Source of the DNA: a virus | Reading direction: 5' to 3' (one strand) | DNA length: 30,578 bases | Virus record (IMG/VR): IMGVR_UViG_3300048837_002360 | Coordinates: 1 to 30,578 of that record | In this document: in pieces, positions 12,574-24,516 of the stretch | How the letters are laid out: every line of letters begins with the position of its first letter | Numbering within the stretch: position 1 is the first letter of the stretch | The notes under the pieces: model-generated | Database searches by the model: none | Told to the model about the DNA's origin: nothing | What the model saw: only the letters and a program-made list of their open reading frames with translations | Translations under genes and position numbers: made by a program

Positions 12574-12709
12574 ATCTCTAGCCCCCACGCGAGCTTAGTA
12601 AAATCTGTAAGTTCTTTTGGCACAAGTGGTTAATTGCCTTGATGTCCGGCTCAGCATCCGGCTTAATGTGATCGTGAAGACCACGATTCCTAAGGCACGG
12701 AGAACCGCG

Positions 12710-12940
12710 ATGGCAAACGCCAAACCCACCCAACACGCCCTGAAGACCGCCGACCGGATCGCCCGGGAGGTGCTCGACCTTGAAACGCTCGAGACCCGCA
12801 AGATGGACAGCCTGGACTTCCACGACATGGCGGTCTGGAGCATTAAACAAGCGCTGCTCGACGCCTACGCCGCCGGGTTCGAGGCGGGCAAGACCCCCGG
12901 GGCCCCCGGGACCCGCCCCCGCCCCCGCCCCCGGAAGTAA
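12710..12940 (+). CDS. Small protein of unknown function, first gene of a plus-strand cassette
   Basis: This 76-residue protein reads MANAKPTQHALKTADRIAREVL and WSIKQALLDAYAAGFEAGKTPG, then ends in RPRPRPRK. The body is helical with no known catalytic motif. ATG 12710 has GGAGA seven bases upstream and is preferred over in-frame ATGs further up. The final codons derive from a CCCCCG tandem run ending in CCCCCGGAAGT, so the stop codon lies immediately after a copy of the dispersed motif. It opens an operon transcribed opposite to the phage structural genes. No function can be assigned. Confidence 0.65.
   Translation: MANAKPTQHALKTADRIAREVLDLETLETRKMDSLDFHDMAVWSIKQALLDAYAAGFEAGKTPGAPGTRPRPRPRK
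12896..12938. repeat. CCCCCG tandem run ending in the dispersed motif
   Basis: Repeated CCCCCGGG and CGCCCC units precede CCCCCGGAAGT at 12928-12938. The tract encodes the RPRPRPRK end of the first plus-strand cassette gene, and the stop codon TAA starts on the T of the motif. Confidence 0.55.
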
Positions 12941-12967
12941 CCACGCACACGCAACAGGAGACACGCC

Positions 12968-13231
12968 ATGCGAACCACACGAATCGATCTCGAAGGCGAC
13001 GCCGGCAACGGCCACTACGCCACCATCACCCGCCCATCCGGGGGCGAACACATCGAGGTCACGATCCTCACGCCCGCGCAACCCAACGGCCGGGTCCACC
13101 ACGTCCAGGCCGACAGCGAAGACGACCTCTGGTCGATGGCCGAGTGCCTCCAGCATCAGCTCGATGGGGTCCGGGGCACCAACAGCATGATCCACGACTA
13201 CCTCCGCGAGCTTCAGCGCTTCGCGGATTGA
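12968..13231 (+). CDS. Small protein of unknown function
   Basis: This 87-residue protein begins MRTTRIDLEGDAGNGHYATITRP, with alternating strands (YATITRP, HIEVTILTP, VHHVQA) and then a helical C-terminus (DDLWSMAECLQHQLDGV, YLRELQRFAD). It has an excellent ribosome binding site, AGGAGA nine bases before the ATG. A small alpha/beta fold is likely. I do not recognise a family. It sits between two other small genes with the same spacing and the same kind of ribosome binding site. Confidence 0.65.
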   Translation: MRTTRIDLEGDAGNGHYATITRPSGGEHIEVTILTPAQPNGRVHHVQADSEDDLWSMAECLQHQLDGVRGTNSMIHDYLRELQRFAD

Positions 13232-13264
13232 ACCATCGGTAACCACACGCAAAAGGAGAACGCC

Positions 13265-13540
13265 ATGTCCAAGAGCCACAAACAAACCCGATCCGACGGC
13301 ACCACTGTCCGGGTCACCGTTCCCGACGACCCTAATCCCAAAGACCTGTTGATCGACGCCATCCGCGAGAACCTCTCGCTCGAGGCCGTCTGCCTGATCG
13401 CCGCCAAACTCCAGCCTTGCTACGGCAAAGGCCAAGCGGGCCAACGGGCCGAACGCGAGTGCGACTGGTTCACCGAGATGTTGATCGATGAACTGGGAAC
13501 CAGCGAATACGAACGACTGTGCGACGAGCTGGGCCTGTGA
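13265..13540 (+). CDS. Small protein of unknown function
   Basis: This 91-residue protein begins MSKSHKQTRSDGTTVRVTVPDDPNP and continues LIDAIRENLSLEAVCLIAAKLQ and ECDWFTEMLIDELGTSEYERLCDELGL. It is acidic overall and mainly helical after a short N-terminal strand. AAAGGAGA precedes the ATG at good spacing. No recognised domain or catalytic motif is visible. Small acidic phage proteins are sometimes DNA mimics or anti-defence factors, but nothing in the sequence shows this directly. Confidence 0.65.
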   Translation: MSKSHKQTRSDGTTVRVTVPDDPNPKDLLIDAIRENLSLEAVCLIAAKLQPCYGKGQAGQRAERECDWFTEMLIDELGTSEYERLCDELGL

Positions 13541-13582
13541 GCCCGGCTCGCTTTCATTAACCCTCCCGAAAGGAGAACCACC

Positions 13583-14158
13583 ATGAAGAAGGACGAAGTC
13601 AAGATCGGCGAAACCTACACCGCCAAGGTTACGAACAAGGTCGTGCCCGTTCGGATCGACAAGGAGAACCCGCGCGGCGGCTGGGACGCCACGAACCTGG
13701 TGACAAACAAGACGGTCCGGATCAAGAGCGCCCAGCGCCTGCGCGGACGCGTGAGCGCACCCGCCACAGACGCTGACGCCGGCATGGCGAAGCCCGCCGC
13801 AAAGCCGCCGGTCAAAAAGAAGCTCACCGCCGCCGAGCGAAAGGCCCGACGGCAACAGCCACCTGCTAAGGACGGCAAGCCCACACCCGCCGCGAAGAAG
13901 GCCGGTGCCCCGAAGGAGAAGAAGCTGAGCCTGATCGACGCGGCCGTGCAGGTCCTCGGCAAGGCTAAGGAGCCAATGGGCACGAAGGAGATGGTTGCAC
14001 AGATTACCGAACAGAATCTCTGGTCGCCCCGCAGCGGCGGTAAGACGCCACACGCCACGCTCTACAGCGCCATCCTCCGCGAGCTGCAGAAGAAAGGCAC
14101 GGACGCCCGGTTCCAGAAGGCCGAGCGCGGCCGGTTCACCCTGGCGAAGGGAGCGTGA
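13583..14158 (+). CDS. KOW-like plus HARE-HTH domain DNA-binding protein
   Basis: This 191-residue protein has two parts. Residues 1-55 (VKIGETYTAKVTNKVVPVRI, TNLVTNKTVRIKSAQRLRGRV) form a small beta-barrel-like domain. A Lys/Ala/Pro-rich basic linker follows to about residue 112. Residues 113-191 (LSLIDAAVQVLGKAKEPMGT, TPHATLYSAILREL, ARFQKAERGRFTLAKGA) match the HARE-HTH winged-helix domain. HARE-HTH occurs in RNA polymerase delta, ASXL proteins and restriction endonucleases and has been proposed to sense modified DNA. AAAGGAGA precedes the ATG. It may regulate the cassette or read DNA made by the nearby methyltransferase; that link is inference. Confidence 0.8.
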   Translation: MKKDEVKIGETYTAKVTNKVVPVRIDKENPRGGWDATNLVTNKTVRIKSAQRLRGRVSAPATDADAGMAKPAAKPPVKKKLTAAERKARRQQPPAKDGKPTPAAKKAGAPKEKKLSLIDAAVQVLGKAKEPMGTKEMVAQITEQNLWSPRSGGKTPHATLYSAILRELQKKGTDARFQKAERGRFTLAKGA

Positions 14159-14161
14159 GCC

Positions 14162-14380
14162 GTGGCCGTACCCCCCGAGATCCTTAAGCATATGGCCCAC
14201 GTCGATCAAACCCGCGCGCACCTGCGCGAGGTGATCAAGCAGATTCCCCGCAGCGACCTGGTCGAAATCATCCGCACCGCCGCGTCCGGCAAGCTCAGCG
14301 AGTTCGACGAGCGCACCGCCCTCCTGGTCGGCATGCTCGCGGTGATCGCCATCCACATGCTGTTTGAAGATGGAGATTAA
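14162..14380 (+). CDS. Small helical protein, function unknown
   Basis: This 72-residue protein starts at GTG 14162, with GGGAG about seven bases upstream inside the previous gene, whose stop is only three bases away. It reads MAVPPEILKHMAHVDQTRAH, REVIKQIPRSDLVEIIRTA and ends with a hydrophobic helix (ALLVGMLAVIAIHMLF). The last helix could be a membrane segment or a buried dimer helix. No family is recognised. Tight spacing on both sides places it in the same operon as the HARE-HTH gene. Confidence 0.55.
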   Translation: MAVPPEILKHMAHVDQTRAHLREVIKQIPRSDLVEIIRTAASGKLSEFDERTALLVGMLAVIAIHMLFEDGD

Positions 14381-14383
14381 ACC

Positions 14384-14740
14384 ATGCCCACCCGCCCCCG
14401 TCCCCGGAACCGGATCGTCAACTTCGACGTGGTGGACGACCACCTCGAGATGAAGGTTTCGTTCACAGATGATCCGGAGAAGAGCTACGTCCACCGTTGC
14501 ACGCGCGACATCTTCCGCGAAGTCGCGTTCACCATCGAAGAACTCGCGGCCGGAGGTACAACGCTCGAGGAACTGGTCGCAGCGATGGACGCGCCCTTCA
14601 CACAGGTCAACGTCGCGCTCGCATTCATGAAGGAGCGCGGGTGCGTTGAGGTTCGCAGGCGGCGCACCTACCCCGCATCCGGCGCGCTCTACGAAGATGC
14701 CATGATCGAGTTCATGTACCTGGCCGAAGCGCCGTACTGA
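14384..14740 (+). CDS. Winged-helix-like small protein, function unknown
   Basis: This 118-residue protein starts with MPTRPRPRNR, a basic tail encoded by a CCCCCG-type run, followed by strands (IVNFDVVDDHLEMKVSFTDD). A region then resembles a winged helix: TTLEELVAAMDAPFTQVNVALAFMKERGCVEVRRRRTYPA. DNA binding is plausible. It is the last gene of the plus-strand cassette and is followed within 30 bases by a strong terminator. No family assignment is made. Confidence 0.6.
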   Translation: MPTRPRPRNRIVNFDVVDDHLEMKVSFTDDPEKSYVHRCTRDIFREVAFTIEELAAGGTTLEELVAAMDAPFTQVNVALAFMKERGCVEVRRRRTYPASGALYEDAMIEFMYLAEAPY

Positions 14741-14765
14741 CCGCATCACAACCCCGCCCCCTCCA

Positions 14766-14788
14766 CCCCGGCCAACGCCGGGGTTTTT
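14766..14788 (+). terminator. Rho-independent terminator after the plus-strand cassette
   Basis: A perfect seven-base-pair stem, CCCCGGC pairing with GCCGGGG, encloses the loop CAAC and is followed by five T residues. It lies 26 bases after the last cassette stop and separates that operon from the AbrB-type operon. Confidence 0.9.
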
Positions 14789-14821
14789 GACTGAAGCCGG
14801 CCCCTGTTCCGGTCGAAACCG

Positions 14822-14844
14822 CCGTATATACTGTGTGTATACGG
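14822..14844 (+). promoter_or_regulatory. Palindromic operator and -10-like box for the AbrB-HhH pair
   Basis: The arms CCGTATA and TATACGG flank a nine-base centre, with two further symmetric base pairs inside. A TATACT (14827-14832) within it resembles a -10 box; no clear -35 box is seen. It ends 16 bases before the antitoxin-like start, so binding would block transcription, as in autoregulated MazE/AbrB systems. Confidence 0.6.
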
Positions 14845-14860
14845 ACAATGGGAGCCCGCC

Positions 14861-15090: not shown

Positions 15091-15804
15091 TTGCCGCCCT
15101 TGGTGCTCGTCGGCACGCTTGCCGTGAAGCAGCCTGGCACAGACAATCCACGTATGCTCGAAGAGGATGCCGCCGCTCTCGCGGAACAGATCGAAAAGGA
15201 CTTCGGACGCATCTCCGAACCCACTCACTGGATATGGACGCAACCGCCGGCACCCAAGGTGATTGACTGTGTGTTGTCGCTCCGCCAAACGTATGAAACC
15301 GTGGTTGAGCCGCGCGTCAAGGCTTTCGTCGCTGAGAACCCAGAGGTACGCGCGTGCCTCGACCTGCGGGAACTCATTGATGCATCTGAGTCGAAGGCCA
15401 GCTTCTACGCCAAGTATTTGAACATGAAGAGCCCGAGCAAGGCGGCCACCACATCGGGCGTTGTCGACTACCTGGTCGACATCCAGAAGCGGTTCGATGG
15501 CGATACCGAAGAAGATCGCCTGGGCGCATGGGCGCGTTGGTGCCGGCCGGGAGATTACCTTTCGCTCGGCGTAAAGGGATTCGGCTTGGCGGGCTTCCAG
15601 TACCTTCGCATGCTCTTCGGTGCCGATACGGTCAAGCCAGATGTGCACATCAACCGTTACGTCGCCGATACCCTTGGTCAACCGGTTAGCGATATACGCG
15701 CGATCTATATTCTTGAACGTGCGGGGGAGATACTCCGCCAGCCCATCAAGAGCATTGATGTCGCGATATGGGGTCGTGGCGCGGGTCACGGCGCGACACC
15801 TTGA
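15091..15804 (+). CDS. HhH-GPD DNA-glycosylase-like protein paired with AbrB
   Basis: This 237-residue protein has the hallmarks of a helix-hairpin-helix GPD fold. LSLGVKGFGLAGFQYLRMLFG (about 158-177) stands for the LPGVGxxTAxxxL hairpin, and TVKPDVHINRYVADTLG provides the conserved Asp184 (usual form PVDTHVxR). The upstream LSLRQTYETVVEPRVKAF matches the first glycosylase helix. The lysine used by bifunctional glycosylase-lyases is not present in the hairpin, so it would be monofunctional, repurposed or inactive. The start is taken as TTG 15091, coupled to the AbrB stop; ATG 15154 is the alternative. Its end overlaps the methyltransferase end by 19 bases. It may be a base-targeting toxin or a repair or defence enzyme. 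Confidence 0.6.
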   Translation: MPPLVLVGTLAVKQPGTDNPRMLEEDAAALAEQIEKDFGRISEPTHWIWTQPPAPKVIDCVLSLRQTYETVVEPRVKAFVAENPEVRACLDLRELIDASESKASFYAKYLNMKSPSKAATTSGVVDYLVDIQKRFDGDTEEDRLGAWARWCRPGDYLSLGVKGFGLAGFQYLRMLFGADTVKPDVHINRYVADTLGQPVSDIRAIYILERAGEILRQPIKSIDVAIWGRGAGHGATP

Positions 15805-17216
15805 GGTGTTTTGGGTGCTGATCGGTCGGGCGCGTCGTTAGTAAAGTTTTCTTGACTTGTGCCGTTCGCTGGTAAAGCATCCTTTACTAGCCGCTCGGCC
15901 TTCCGCCCGGTGAACTTTTCCCACCGTTCGACGATCACGTCACAGTACGCCGGGTCCAACTCCATCAGGAACGCCCGACGCCCGGTCTGCTCGCAGCCGA
16001 TCAGTGTCGAACCGCTACCGCCGAAAAGGTCCAGCACGTTATCCCCCGGAAGTGATGAGTACTGAATCGAGCGCGCCGCCAACTCCACGGGTTTCTCGGT
16101 GAGGTGGACCATCGCCTGCGGGTTGACCTTCTTGACGTGCCAGAGATCGGTCGCGTTGTTCGGCCCGTAGAAATGGTGGCCTGCGCCCTCCTTCCAACCA
16201 TAAAACGCGATCTCAAAGGCGCCCATGAAGTCCTTGCGCGTCAGCACCGGGTGCTGCTTGTCCCAGACGATGCCCTGGCTGAAGTACAGGCCGGCCGCTT
16301 TGAGCGGGGCGGGGTAGTTGCCGAGGTTGGCGTACCCGCCCCAGATGTAGAACGAGCCGCCGGGCTTGAGGACGCGCGAGGCGTTGGCGAACCAGGCCAG
16401 CAGCATCTCGTCGAACGCGTCGTCGGTAACGAAGTCGTTGGCCAGCGGCCGGTCCTTGGCGCGCATCTGTTTGTGCGTGCCCTTGGCCTTGCCCGGGTGG
16501 CGGGCCAGGTCCAACTTCTGATGGTGGCCGCCCGAGCCTTTACGCTTGCTGTCGGCCTTGGCGAACGAGGAGTTACCGGCCGCGATGGCGTTGTTGCTGC
16601 GCGGCTCGACCTTCACGTTGTAGGGCGGGTCCATATTAACCAGATCAATCCCCGCACCATCCAGCAGCCGATCCAAGTCTCCGGGGCTGCCGCTGTCGCC
16701 GCACATCAGGCGGTGGTTGCCGAGAACCCAGATGTCGCCGGGTTGTGTGATCGGATCGTCCGGCGGTTCGGGCACCGAATCGGGATCGGTCAGACCCTCG
16801 GCCAGGTCGCCGTCGAGCATCTTGGCCAGTTCGGTCTCGTCGAAGCCCAACAGGTTCAGGTCGTACTCCGCCTGCTGCAGGTCTTTTAGTTCGATCGGCA
16901 GCAGGTCCATGTCCCACTCGGCCAGCGTCGCCGTCTGATTGTCGGCGATGCGGTACGCCTTGACCTTCTCAGGCGGCAGGTCGGTGGCGACGTGGACCGG
17001 CACCTTAGCCAGGCCGAGTTTCTTCGCCGCCTTCCAGCGGGTATGCCCGACGATGATCACGCCGTCGGCGTCGATCACGATGGGTTGGCGGAAGCCGAAT
17101 TCCTTCAGGCTGGCCGCCACGGCGTCCACGGCGTCGTCATTGATGCGAGGGTTGGCCTCGTAGGGCTTGATGGCGTCGATGGGCCGCAGTTCTACGTCAA
17201 ACGTCTTGGTCGTCAT
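15786..17216 (-). CDS. ParB-like/DNA methyltransferase fusion (N6-adenine or N4-cytosine)
   Basis: This 476-residue protein has an N-terminal ParB/Srx-like domain, residues about 5-100, with IKPYEANPRIND and GHTRWKAAKKLG. A class beta amino-methyltransferase follows: motif IV DPPY at 196-199 and the SAM-binding motif FGGSGST at 398-404, in the order typical of N6-adenine or N4-cytosine enzymes. A basic insert (about 207-255) lies after DPPY. ATG 17216 has GGAGG just upstream. No restriction enzyme partner is next to it, so it is probably an orphan phage methyltransferase that protects DNA from host restriction or alters regulation. This ParB-methylase architecture is common in phages. Confidence 0.9.
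   Translation of the reverse strand: MTTKTFDVELRPIDAIKPYEANPRINDDAVDAVAASLKEFGFRQPIVIDADGVIIVGHTRWKAAKKLGLAKVPVHVATDLPPEKVKAYRIADNQTATLAEWDMDLLPIELKDLQQAEYDLNLLGFDETELAKMLDGDLAEGLTDPDSVPEPPDDPITQPGDIWVLGNHRLMCGDSGSPGDLDRLLDGAGIDLVNMDPPYNVKVEPRSNNAIAAGNSSFAKADSKRKGSGGHHQKLDLARHPGKAKGTHKQMRAKDRPLANDFVTDDAFDEMLLAWFANASRVLKPGGSFYIWGGYANLGNYPAPLKAAGLYFSQGIVWDKQHPVLTRKDFMGAFEIAFYGWKEGAGHHFYGPNNATDLWHVKKVNPQAMVHLTEKPVELAARSIQYSSLPGDNVLDLFGGSGSTLIGCEQTGRRAFLMELDPAYCDVIVERWEKFTGRKAERLVKDALPANGTSQENFTNDAPDRSAPKTPQGVAP
15796..15812 (+). terminator. Weak terminator at the end of the HhH gene
   Basis: The stem ACACC with GGTGT encloses TTGA and is followed by TTT. It spans the stop codon of the glycosylase-like gene, where the convergent methyltransferase gene also ends. 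The stem is short, so termination may be partial. Confidence 0.35.
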
Positions 17217-17341
17217 GTTACACCTCCGTGTGTTTGGGCTCGTGAGAAAAAACCGGACACGCACAACTAACTCTGCCTATGCTGGCGACCGTTCCCGCCG
17301 GCATCAGGAAGACCGGGCGCCGGGAAGTACCTATTCGCCGC

Positions 17342-17378
17342 AGTTACCCACTGCCACACTGGCAGATTGTGGGTAACT
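17342..17378. repeat. Two-part hairpin in the putative origin
   Basis: The outer arms AGTTACCCAC and GTGGGTAACT pair perfectly over ten bases. An inner TGCC/GGCA stem with loop ACACT lies between them, with a four-base bulge (GATT). No gene covers this hairpin. It could be a replication or regulatory protein site, or a terminator-like structure without a T-tract. Confidence 0.7.
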
Positions 17379-17417
17379 CGCGACCTTGGCCCACGTTCGC
17401 CCGTGTTCGCGAGGGCG

Positions 17418-17443
17418 GCGGGTGGTAGGGACGTACCACCCGC
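17418..17443. repeat. Perfect 10-bp hairpin in the putative origin
   Basis: The arms GCGGGTGGTA and TACCACCCGC are perfectly complementary around a six-base loop (GGGACG). A copy of the dispersed CTTCCGGGGG motif starts on its last base. No gene is credible here. Confidence 0.7.
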
Positions 17444-17507
17444 TTCCGGGGGCGCAACACGGGCCAACGTCGGCGGCCGGGTCCGCACCGGGGATTCCTT
17501 CCCCTAA

Positions 17508-17735
17508 CTTCCTTCACCCACCCCCCTCGCGCGCACATGCGAGCCAAAATCGGTAGCGCGCAAATGTATGGGTGATAGGGTGAAGGAAGTAGAGTAGTAG
17601 TAGTTTTTCCCTGTATTTATGGGCCAAACTTCCTTCACCCCCGACGGGTGAAGGAAGGGTGCGGTATGGTGAAGGATGTTCGGGTCGCGGGGGGTCTTTG
17701 AGTGCATCTTTCACCTTCCTTCACCTTCCTTCACG
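17508..17735. repeat. Iteron-like repeats CTTCCTTCACC in both orientations (candidate origin)
   Basis: Exact copies of CTTCCTTCACC begin at 17508, 17629 and 17715, and one copy with a last-base change begins at 17725. Exact inverse copies (GGTGAAGGAAG) begin at 17579 and 17647, and a degenerate one begins at 17668. The 17629 and 17647 copies form a perfect 12-bp hairpin with loop CCGAC. The two rightmost copies encode the last residues of the primase-helicase. The whole interval 17217-17710 has no believable gene; two short overlapping frames in it are only repeat readthrough. Iteron arrays beside a replication gene are typical of phage and plasmid origins. Confidence 0.6.
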
Positions 17736-19981
17736 CCTTCGTTTAGCTGATAAACCACCCCGGTCCGCCCGGCGGTCTGGACCGGCGCGGCGGCAACCTC
17801 ATCTCGCTGGACCAGCGTCTCGATCAGTTCCTTGAATTCCTTGGCTTTCATCTTCATGCGTTTAAGCAGAACCTGGTGTGAGAGCGTGTGCCCTGGCGCC
17901 TCCTTGAGCTTGCGTACCAGCTTCAGGCACTCGGCGTGGAACGGGTTCTCCGCCACGTAGCTACCCGCGAGATACAGCTGTCTCCGCGTCTGGTGCGTGG
18001 CGAACGCCCGCGCCCATTCCACCGCGGGAAGGCCGATGACCGGGTCCTCGTGGTTCTCGCTGCAGGCGTAGATCAGCGCCAGCTTCTTGGCGTTCTCCAG
18101 CGTGCGCGACCAAGCCACGCGCGCGACCTCGTCGTTGCGCTCGTGCGCGGCGTCGTACTGAAGCTCGGTCTGGCGCTGTAGCGCCGCGACCGCCTCCTGC
18201 GCCTCGGGCGTTGCGGGCACGACCCGGGGCTCGGGGTGGACCTCCAGCAGGTTCGCGCGGCGTGAGCCCGGCTGGAACTCCGCCCACCACCGCGCTGCCT
18301 GGAGGACCGGCTCGGGGAGGTTGCGGGCGCTTCCGGGGGCCTGGCCCTCGCCGCGCTTGCCGATGTCCACGATGATCAACCTGGCGAAGAAGCCGTTGGT
18401 GAGCATGCGCTGGCTCAGCGACTCGTAGAAGTACTGCGGCGTGGCCGTACCGAACAGCGTCAGGTGCGGCTGGTCGATGTGCGCCGCTTCTTTCTGCCCG
18501 GCCTTGACGCGCATCGGGTACACGTCGGCGGCGGAGGTGTAGAGGGTTAAGAGCACGTTCGGGATCGACTCGCGCTTGTTCTCGCGGTCGAGGTTGATCT
18601 GCCGCAGCACGCCGTCCATCTCGTCGTTCTGGAAGAGCATGGCGCTGGTGCGGGCCAGCGCGTCCTGGATGCCCTCGCCCGAGGCGAACTTATCGCCCAG
18701 CGCCGCGACGTGGCCGATCTCGAAGAGTACGCGGGCGTTGACCTTACGCGGGAAGTCCTTACCCGTGCCCGAGCTGGCCAGCGCCAGCAGGTAGAGGTTC
18801 GGGCGCAGGTCGCCGCCGTCGCAGACCTTGCGTCCGCAGAGGTAGGACTGCAGCGCCATCGCGCCGCAGAACGCCAGGCCGGCGTTCGGGTAGGGGGCGT
18901 TGGCCAGCGTGAAGTCCATCACCCGCGCAACGAGGCCGGGCACGTGGAACAGGGATTCCGGGATCGGGCCCGGGTCGGCGATGTCGCGATTACTTTCCCC
19001 GCAGCCGGGGTGATCTTTATCACCGCCGTTGGCCTGGCCGAGGATGCCGGAGATGTCCACGCCCGGGTGGCAATCAGCGAGGGAATCGCCGCCGTACCCG
19101 CTCGCCCGTAGCGACCGCGCCGCCTGTTCGTAGTTTCCGCCGTGGTTGAGTAGCGCGTACACAGAAAATGGCGAGTAGGCGCGGTTGGATTCGAACGGCG
19201 CGGCGTTCGAGCTGAATACATAGAAAACACGATCTTTCAGCGACGCCGACCAGCCCGAAGCCTTGCCCGGACGCCGCCAGTATTCGTTGTCACCATTACT
19301 AACTTGCACCCAGCCGTGGTGTTCGAGCACGGCCCGAACGTCGCCGCGGACACTGAAATCGTCGCCGGGCCTGTCGGCGTTTGTTACGTGCGCAGTAGTC
19401 GTCGGCGGGGCTGAGCCATTCACGACCGGCGGTACGTACTCGTTAAGTTCCCATGCCGCCTGCAGCAGCGTATCGCGCTCCGCTTCGGTGAGCACGGGCA
19501 GTTCGCACAGGTCGCCGTGGGCGAGGATGTACCCTTGTGTCGGCGCGCAGAGGAACAGCCCGCCCTCGCCGCGGGTCTCAATGAGCGTCTCAACCTGGCC
19601 ACCGGCCTTGCGCTGCGCCAGCTTCAGGTTACCGCATACCGGCGCCACGCAGCGGTAGATCACATGCATGCCGCCAGAGGGCGTGGTCTCGACGATAAGA
19701 TTGTCGCGTAGAGCGGCGGGGACGCGGTCCCACCACTCGCGGAAGCGTTCGCCGCCGGCGTCGAAGTCGAGGATCTCAAGATTACCGGAGATGTGCCCGC
19801 AAAGAACGCAGATCGCATCAGGGTCGTTCGCCAGCCACGCCGACAGTTCAGCCTGCGTCGGCTGGCGCTGCTGGTATTGCCGCCAGCGACCGACGGCGGG
19901 ACGTTTCTCGGCGCGTCGCGCCGGCAGCACACACAGACCTTCGGCAAGATAGCGCTGTGCGGCTCTGCTCAGTTCAGACAT
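17711..19981 (-). CDS. Bifunctional prim-pol and DUF3987-type helicase replication protein
   Basis: This 756-residue protein starts MSELSRAAQRYLAEGLCVLP at ATG 19981. The prim-pol domain has catalytic Asp72 and Asp74 (ILDFD) and SGGMHVIYR with His106. A later domain is helicase-like: Walker A SSGTGKD (403-409, with Asp in the usual Ser/Thr position) and a Walker B-like MLFQNDEMD (448-456). The order fits replicative primase-helicases of phages and plasmids. The C-terminus (VKEGEGR) is encoded by the iteron-like repeats, linking gene and origin. A start further up at 20101 is possible but would overlap the divergent nuclease gene. It would initiate replication at the adjacent repeats. Confidence 0.85.
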   Translation of the reverse strand: MSELSRAAQRYLAEGLCVLPARRAEKRPAVGRWRQYQQRQPTQAELSAWLANDPDAICVLCGHISGNLEILDFDAGGERFREWWDRVPAALRDNLIVETTPSGGMHVIYRCVAPVCGNLKLAQRKAGGQVETLIETRGEGGLFLCAPTQGYILAHGDLCELPVLTEAERDTLLQAAWELNEYVPPVVNGSAPPTTTAHVTNADRPGDDFSVRGDVRAVLEHHGWVQVSNGDNEYWRRPGKASGWSASLKDRVFYVFSSNAAPFESNRAYSPFSVYALLNHGGNYEQAARSLRASGYGGDSLADCHPGVDISGILGQANGGDKDHPGCGESNRDIADPGPIPESLFHVPGLVARVMDFTLANAPYPNAGLAFCGAMALQSYLCGRKVCDGGDLRPNLYLLALASSGTGKDFPRKVNARVLFEIGHVAALGDKFASGEGIQDALARTSAMLFQNDEMDGVLRQINLDRENKRESIPNVLLTLYTSAADVYPMRVKAGQKEAAHIDQPHLTLFGTATPQYFYESLSQRMLTNGFFARLIIVDIGKRGEGQAPGSARNLPEPVLQAARWWAEFQPGSRRANLLEVHPEPRVVPATPEAQEAVAALQRQTELQYDAAHERNDEVARVAWSRTLENAKKLALIYACSENHEDPVIGLPAVEWARAFATHQTRRQLYLAGSYVAENPFHAECLKLVRKLKEAPGHTLSHQVLLKRMKMKAKEFKELIETLVQRDEVAAAPVQTAGRTGVVYQLNEGVKEGEGR

Positions 19982-20983: not shown

Positions 20984-20987
<4 letters not shown>
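20049..20987 (+). CDS. PGN_0703-like PD-(D/E)XK nuclease on the opposite strand
   Basis: This roughly 312-residue protein contains FKRRCRLLQSWYRVEILKI, NFISPEAFAYAKQRVEDKKDNPDLTIEEFRLFNNMLSSMPMCFNLF and a nuclease core WDAAIFYADPAGKPGLVSIETKY. The core gives the D...ExK triad Asp159, Glu177 and Lys179, counted from the ATG at 20049. This matches my knowledge of PGN_0703-like putative restriction endonucleases. No strong ribosome binding site marks the start; ATG 20040 and 19980 are alternatives. It is the only plus-strand gene in the replication region. It is divergent from the primase and its stop overlaps the helicase stop by four bases, so it looks like a later insertion, probably a defence gene or moron. 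Confidence 0.65.
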
Positions 20988-23733
<2,746 letters not shown>

Positions 23734-23737
<4 letters not shown>

Positions 23738-24516
23738 GCGGCCACCTCCGTCCCGTCGGGCAGGATGCAGCGATCGTCTAGGATCGGGATGGTGTAGAGC
23801 GTGTCGCTGCGCCGGCCGAGGTAGCCGAGGATGAAGCCGTTGACCCACTCGACCGGACGGCCGGTGCCGTACAGCGGGATCGGCTTACAAAGACAGCCGC
23901 CGCTACGGGCCTGGACGACCTGGCCCGGGGACCAAATGTTCTGGATGATGCTCGAGTCGGCGCGGTGGGTGTGCCCGTGGATGACGCTCTTGCCCTGGCT
24001 GATCTGTAGGTGGTTCTTGGTGGCGTGGCGGGCATACGACCAGCCGTGCACGGCGATGATGCGCGAATTGACCGCGTAGTGCGGGTAGCGCGCCGTGGCC
24101 GAGCCGTAGGGCACGTAGGTGAACTTCGACCGGCCCTTGCTCAGTTGGATGCGCGGCGCCAGCAACGAGTACGCGCCACGCCCCTCGCTGGTCAGCGCCG
24201 CCCAGCGGTCCAGGCGGTACTCGTGATTACCTTCGACCATGACGAGCCTGTCGCAGCAGGCCTGCACGCGGTCGAGCAGCGCGTTGGCCGTCTTGAGGTC
24301 GTCCTGGTAGTCGGTCTCGGGCACGCCGTACGTGGGCGGGTGCGAGGAGAACTGCCCGCAGTCCAGCAGGTCGCCCAGGCACACGATCAGGTCGGGCTTG
24401 ATCCGTTCGGCCGCGCGGCAGAACACCTCCACCGCCTGAGGGTTCTGGTGCGGGATGTGCACGTCGCCGAAGGCCAGCATGGTCCTGGCCTTGGTTGGTT
24501 TCGAGCGATTGGCCAT
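23734..24516 (-). CDS. Calcineurin-like metallophosphoesterase
   Basis: This 260-residue protein carries the dinuclear-metal motifs GDVH (17-20), GDLLD (48-52), GNHE (96-99) and, near the C-terminus, HGHTH. The family comprises DNA exonucleases, phosphatases and phosphodiesterases; Mre11/SbcD-like or phage-type substrates are possible. The start is ATG 24516, overlapping the upstream stop as TGATG, with GGGGGAAG upstream. The downstream helicase start overlaps its stop as GTGA, so the two are translationally coupled. The nuclease or phosphatase role is not decided by sequence alone. Confidence 0.88.

Follow-up and report, generated by a model that had tools for sequence, protein, structure and literature searches.

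Positions 17494-17735 of the window most probably serve as the origin of replication, or as a cis element essential to it, in a temperate phage of Planctomycetota, and would work together with the C-terminal winged helix of the PrimPol encoded beside them. The window, the whole stretch of DNA analysed here, is a single linear virus record of 30,578 bases and contains genes for a lambda-type portal, a capsid, a terminase and an S24 repressor in addition to a leftward early operon. Because the PrimPol relatives in bacterial genomes are nearly all from Planctomycetota, chiefly Phycisphaerae and Pirellulales, the window most likely represents a phage of this group that is temperate or present as a prophage. 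Only distant PrimPol matches are found in plasmids, no close DNA relatives are present among named phages, and Rfam and tRNA searches of the window found nothing.

An examination of the intergenic region reveals an array of the word CTTCCTTCACC, which reads GGTGAAGGAAG on the PrimPol strand, with five exact copies, two one-mismatch copies and two two-mismatch copies (Table 1); the exact and one-mismatch copies are the seven copies or near copies in two orientations described in the earlier note. No exact or one-mismatch copy occurs elsewhere in the window. The exact 11-mer is never obtained five times, as observed, or even once in 1000 dinucleotide shuffles of 17217-17740, and at up to two mismatches the window contains 18 matches compared with 6.8 expected, a number reached in 0 of 100 shuffles. 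Such a cluster of several short repeats beyond chance in one intergenic region is typical of an iteron origin. One inverted pair indeed forms the perfect 12-bp stem that had been noticed (17629-17640/17646-17657). The interval of approximately 500 bases described as gene-free contains no convincing gene in 17217-17710, and the iterons occupy only 17494-17735 of it. The copies that come first along the direction of PrimPol are located inside the gene and encode its tail GVKEGEGR*, in agreement with the suggestion that the last copies code for the C-terminus of the primase-helicase. This peptide was rejected as a functional feature and is judged to be a by-product, because it is predicted to be disordered and is absent from the RQH-type relatives, in which the PrimPol gene stops before the array.

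Table 1. Features of the array, the adjacent genes and the intervening region; the last column but one gives the orientation of CTTCCTTCACC.
Feature	Position	Strand	CTTCCTTCACC orientation	Remark
ParB_N + N6_N4 DNA methyltransferase	15786-17216	-		neighbour, not iteron partner; partial Mantel r=0.07
10-bp hairpin with nested stem CTGCCA/TGGCAG, perfect	17342-17378	.		keeps distance to methyltransferase gene
10-bp hairpin, perfect	17418-17443	.		assigned to methyltransferase upstream region, not origin
Degenerate iteron, 2 mismatches	17494-17504	-	+	
Iteron GGTGAAGGAAG, exact	17508-17518	-	+	
Iteron GGTGAAGGAAG, exact	17579-17589	+	-	
AT-rich gap that separates iterons, putative unwinding element	17590-17628			local AT maximum and conserved core
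Iteron GGTGAAGGAAG, exact	17629-17639	-	+	other half of inverted pair
Iteron GGTGAAGGAAG, exact	17647-17657	+	-	half of inverted pair
Iteron, 1 mismatch, GGTGAAGGATG	17668-17678	+	-	
Degenerate iteron, 2 mismatches	17705-17715	-	+	spans PrimPol stop codon
PrimPol-DUF3987 replication initiator, 796 aa	17711-20101	-		Pfam and AlphaFold2; TTG start assumed
Iteron GGTGAAGGAAG, exact	17715-17725	-	+	inside PrimPol 3' end
Iteron, 1 mismatch	17725-17735	-	+	inside PrimPol coding sequence
C-terminal winged-helix domain, about residues 715-788, proposed iteron reader	17738-17959	-		models, fold search, covariation
Q743 codon, candidate specificity residue	17873-17875	-		best of 728 columns; held-out test

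A comparison with 65 viral relatives of the window PrimPol reveals that the window's own repeat word is common to close relatives only, and when the PrimPol 3' end was searched for repeats de novo, nearly all relatives proved to have an array, with words that differ by lineage. These words include GGTGAAGGAAG, GGTGAAAGAAG, GGTGAAACG, GGTGAATCTT, CGTGAAGGATT, GGGAAGGATT and GTGACGGATT, in addition to unrelated words such as AGAAAACCGC and CAAAAAGTC. In 42 of 44 viral loci and in 58 of 73 bacterial loci, a few phages being present in both sets, the 380-base tile at the PrimPol 3' end scores higher for repeats than any other tile of its contig; it is not the top tile in the other 2 viral and 15 bacterial loci. 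In phage P4, which served as the positive control of the scan, the annotated ori and crr are the two top tiles. Although the word changes, the positions and orientations of the copies are similar between relatives: reverse copies come first, next a single forward copy and the AT-rich gap, and beyond the gap one or two reverse copies precede the remaining forward copies. This layout, including the gap, is largely kept. The gap is a local AT maximum (about 60% in a genome of 36% AT) at the corresponding place in most relatives, as is characteristic of the unwinding element adjacent to the repeats of an iteron origin, and its core in close relatives is conserved and close to TATAGNAATAACAACACTCTCTC. 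Conservation of the array among relatives, which had been put forward as a check of the origin, therefore exists mostly in place and layout, and the word changes by lineage. In L072, L104, L107 and L118, the winged helix of PrimPol is intact and no array is found directly downstream, as in moved, lost or domesticated cases. Among the named distant phages, no array was found directly 3' of the DUF3987 genes of H188 and PaMx42, and the repeats of Ssp-JY40 and CRP-902 are located farther downstream of the DUF3987 gene.

The window PrimPol matches PF09250 (Prim-Pol, 1.3e-13) and PF13148 (DUF3987, 2.3e-12) in Pfam, and its AlphaFold2 model has a pLDDT of 81.8. In Foldseek searches, the PrimPol domain model matches pRN1 ORF904 (1rni), and the model of the helicase region exhibits weak matches to MCM/ORC, NrS-1 and the SaPI5 primase-helicase. 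That DUF3987 is a helicase domain was proposed because it is associated with primases (PMC5862659). At the C-terminus, two models predict a winged helix composed of helices 720-734, 742-749 and 753-765 and a two-stranded wing, and a fold search with this small domain places winged-helix proteins (MarR, PadR and Zalpha domains) on top; the winged helix of P4 alpha is not among the listed matches, which is evidence neither way. The Pfam match to DUF3987, the models and the Foldseek results thus point to an AAA+ helicase with a C-terminal winged helix, the architecture of P4 alpha, SaPI Rep and Cch2-like initiators, which likewise have iterons directly 3' of the initiator gene.

The likeness to P4 extends to several features. 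P4 alpha is also a fused primase-helicase with a C-terminal winged helix (PMC4234260), the type I iterons of P4 crr lie directly 3' of the initiator gene, and P4 ori contains three tandem copies, one inverted copy, an AT-rich gap and further copies. The P4 ori repeats GGTGAACAG have the core GGTGAA in common with the window iteron, which may be a coincidence. However, the primase of P4 alpha is of the TOPRIM type (PMC4234260), the C-terminus of P4 alpha looks unrelated in sequence by eye, and P4 has two separated arrays; with only PF09250 and PF13148 matched in Pfam, membership of the P4 alpha family proper (D5_N helicase and TOPRIM-type primase) was rejected. Since P4 has its repeats at two sites, crr immediately after the alpha gene and ori approximately 4.5 kb away, and the position of the window array is that of crr, the array may instead be a PrimPol binding site that acts mainly in an auxiliary or copy-control role (as P4 crr and plasmid inc repeats) or as an autoregulation operator, with initiation elsewhere. 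We consider this unlikely: a second array with the same repeat is absent from the window, which as a linear, possibly incomplete record may miss one, and the array follows the PrimPol gene and is not located at its promoter. In SaPI Rep and SCCmec Cch2, the C-terminal domain binds short iterons located immediately after the gene (PMC7581432), as proposed for the window; these systems differ in their iterons and hosts, and Cch2 works with a separate polymerase-primase.

In 33 phages, the distance between iterons was compared with the distances between proteins. The divergence of the iteron follows that of the winged helix, that is, the last ~75 residues (Spearman 0.69), and the values for the helicase (0.20), the primase (0.19) and the methyltransferase encoded nearby (0.24) are low. 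With the others held constant, the partial Mantel r is 0.67 for the winged helix (0 of 2000 permutations) and 0.07 for the methyltransferase (332 of 2000), and the winged helix is the only part of PrimPol whose divergence follows the iteron. Natural chimeras display the same relationship. The window and L018 are 94% identical in the helicase and differ in both the winged helix and the iteron, whereas L004 and L052, as well as L003 and L020, have identical iterons with helicases of only ~53% identity. The earlier proposal that the array and the gene have evolved together is supported for the C-terminal winged helix, and this pattern suggests that the repeat may be bound by its cognate initiator.

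Within the winged helix, residue 743 ranks first of 728 PrimPol columns and explains all variation in iteron bases 5-6 (numbered in GTGAAGGAAG) in 45 dereplicated phages, a set that is biased toward the rule because its loci all have a clear dinucleotide class. Q743 is accompanied by AG (13/13), S743 by AA (22/22) and N743 or R743 by CG (10/10), counts that are not independent events given that the phages are related; the best column outside the winged helix reaches 0.30 versus 0.93 for residue 743. The same pairing is observed in two backgrounds, in that HQ and RQ both have AG and HS and RS both have AA (RS in one locus, L127). Three further viral scans yielded 67 new non-redundant relatives as a held-out set, whose counts are likewise not independent. 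Among those whose array scores 43 or more, whose residue 743 is Q, S, N or R and whose class is clear, agreement is observed in 29/29 loci (Q with AG, 5/5; N with CG, 1/1; R with CG, 1/1; S with AA, 22/22). Two new residues occur in one held-out locus each, G with AG and H with AA, and one K743 locus is without a clear class. Another 14 held-out S743 loci have no clear class by the 50% rule, and most of them read GTGAAA or GTGAATC. Judged by the words, S at position 743 is permissive, or leaky, because the exceptions L219 and L222 (both held-out, class not clear) and partly L170 read GTGAAG and L015 is mixed.

In all, the spelling of the word varies with this residue over about a hundred phages. 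Located where helix 2 begins, residue 743 is proposed to be the main determinant of iteron bases 5-6 and may contact these bases directly, although further winged-helix positions also covary with the iteron. The mutation Q743S would then switch the preference between GGTGAAGG and GGTGAAAG, and with the words GGTGAAGGAAG, GGTGAAAGAAG and GTGACGGATTC the wild type would prefer AG, Q743S AA and an R mutant, perhaps together with H742R, CG. Iteron words also differ within hosts: the prophages L040, L046 and L047 of one IMG genome represent three iteron types, several types are present in Planctomycetes bacterium syqfu, and the CP087563 prophages (L089, L096, L099-L101 and L141) have different words, though some share one. 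Differing words in co-resident prophages are as expected if shared iterons cause incompatibility. We lean slightly toward a readable protein-DNA recognition code in a natural family of orthogonal origins: two iteron bases would depend mainly on a single residue where helix 2 begins, an array would change in most of its iterons at once, and prophages that share a host would diverge in the code so as to remain compatible.

The array adjoins the winged-helix coding sequence, and in discordant pairs the identity falls from about residue 716, so the covariation could be passive, the two having been swapped together by recombination without functional contact. The whole region can, however, be aligned in register between the window, L016 or L035 on one side and L004 or L033 on the other. 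The inter-iteron DNA differs by 22-26% between L016 or L035 and L004 or L033 and by 41% between the window and L033, whereas only 3-8% of the iteron bases other than base 6 have changed; base 6 itself (here counted in G[GT]GAA[AG]NA, as the first variable base) is altered in 6-8 of 9 copies. The majority of the copies of one word were altered together and in place, in parallel with Q743S, as would be expected of sites that are all read by a single protein. Additionally, the methyltransferase on the other flank does not covary, and passive linkage is very unlikely.

This gene, which encodes a ParB_N-methyltransferase, lies downstream in nearly all loci with enough flank, and the repeats might accordingly be a parS-like site for its product. 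There is little reason to credit this explanation, since the divergence of the methyltransferase is unlinked to the iteron once the winged helix is taken into account, the methyltransferase of L003 is 88% identical and yet goes with a different iteron, and the distance between array and methyltransferase gene ranges from 0.24 to 4.7 kb with other ORFs between them. The protein was rejected as iteron partner.

The two 10-bp hairpins that the earlier note had included in the origin are present and perfect, and few hairpins of this kind occur elsewhere (0.18 per 760 b). The hairpin at 17342-17378 is conserved in L003, L069 and L005 and partly in L052 and L061, and L003 and L069 carry a compensatory paired change (GTTACCCAC to GTTCCCCAC and partner). 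The two hairpins, which are separated by 76 bases, are located near the methyltransferase start in L003 and L005, and one of them also in L069 and L052. Replication of pRN1 needs a stem-loop of 100 nt that lies downstream of orf904, stem-loops were also proposed as the start sites of pRN1-like PrimPol phages, and ORF904, which has the same PrimPol-domain fold, also has a C-terminal winged helix with a replication element 3' of its gene (PMC4234260). The element of pRN1 is nevertheless a stem-loop without iterons, and its helicase is SF3 instead of DUF3987. That the hairpins are the origin here is hardly credible, although both lie in the same gap: they are missing from most array-bearing relatives, and in L005, where the gap between array and methyltransferase gene is about 300 bases longer, both remain near the methyltransferase gene, so their distance is kept to that gene and not to PrimPol. 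For these reasons, a pRN1-type stem-loop origin and a role of the hairpins as part of the origin were both rejected. The hairpins look like an element of their own that lies upstream of the ParB-methyltransferase gene and probably acts as its operator or leader.

The iteron origin read by a neighbouring initiator, as first proposed, is thus retained on the basis of the place and layout of the array and its covariation with the winged helix, and the hairpins are apparently not part of it. Several PrimPol monomers would bind the GGTGAAGGAAG iterons that flank the ~40-bp AT-rich gap through their C-terminal winged helices; the DUF3987 AAA+ helicase domains would assemble at the iterons, open the gap and unwind outward, and the N-terminal PrimPol domain would prime. 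The physical binding, the helicase assembly, the melting of the gap and the priming are inferred from P4 alpha, SaPI Rep and Cch2 (PMC4234260, PMC7581432), and the origin activity is likewise an inference. GC skew, which had been suggested as a means to place the origin, does not shift at the array, to either side of which the skew at third positions is about +0.1; total and third-position skew are uninformative because the phage is temperate and mostly integrated.

An iteron origin 3' of its own helicase-initiator is of a kind already known. Judging from the papers searched, three points are new: the probable presence of such an origin in Planctomycetota phages with PrimPol-DUF3987, the variety of its words despite a conserved layout, and the residue-to-base rule, which holds in unseen relatives. 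A large family of PrimPol-DUF3987 phages thereby gains a probable origin with a predicted reader, the co-evolution of initiator and origin becomes directly testable, and small natural origins that differ from one another become available as a set. In a comparison with Arthrobacter phages (loci L153, L334, L333 and L332), the cultured phages ChuckDuck and Peas resemble the window in that seven copies of AGTGACACA, with both orientations represented, immediately follow the 3' end of the PrimPol gene, but their helicase is of the D5_N/DUF5906 type and their C-terminus is different. RootBeer has four AGTGACACC-like copies, and Eileen has the PrimPol C-terminal sequence of ChuckDuck and Peas but no array at the PrimPol 3' end. 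Elsewhere in the window, the RadD-like helicase (20984-23848, minus strand) contains an intein at residues about 80-350, with Hint and LAGLIDADG matches. A 756-aa protein (12578-14848, minus strand) is without a Pfam or PHROG match; its AT skew is strong, and divergent relatives over parts of its length are present in many loci.
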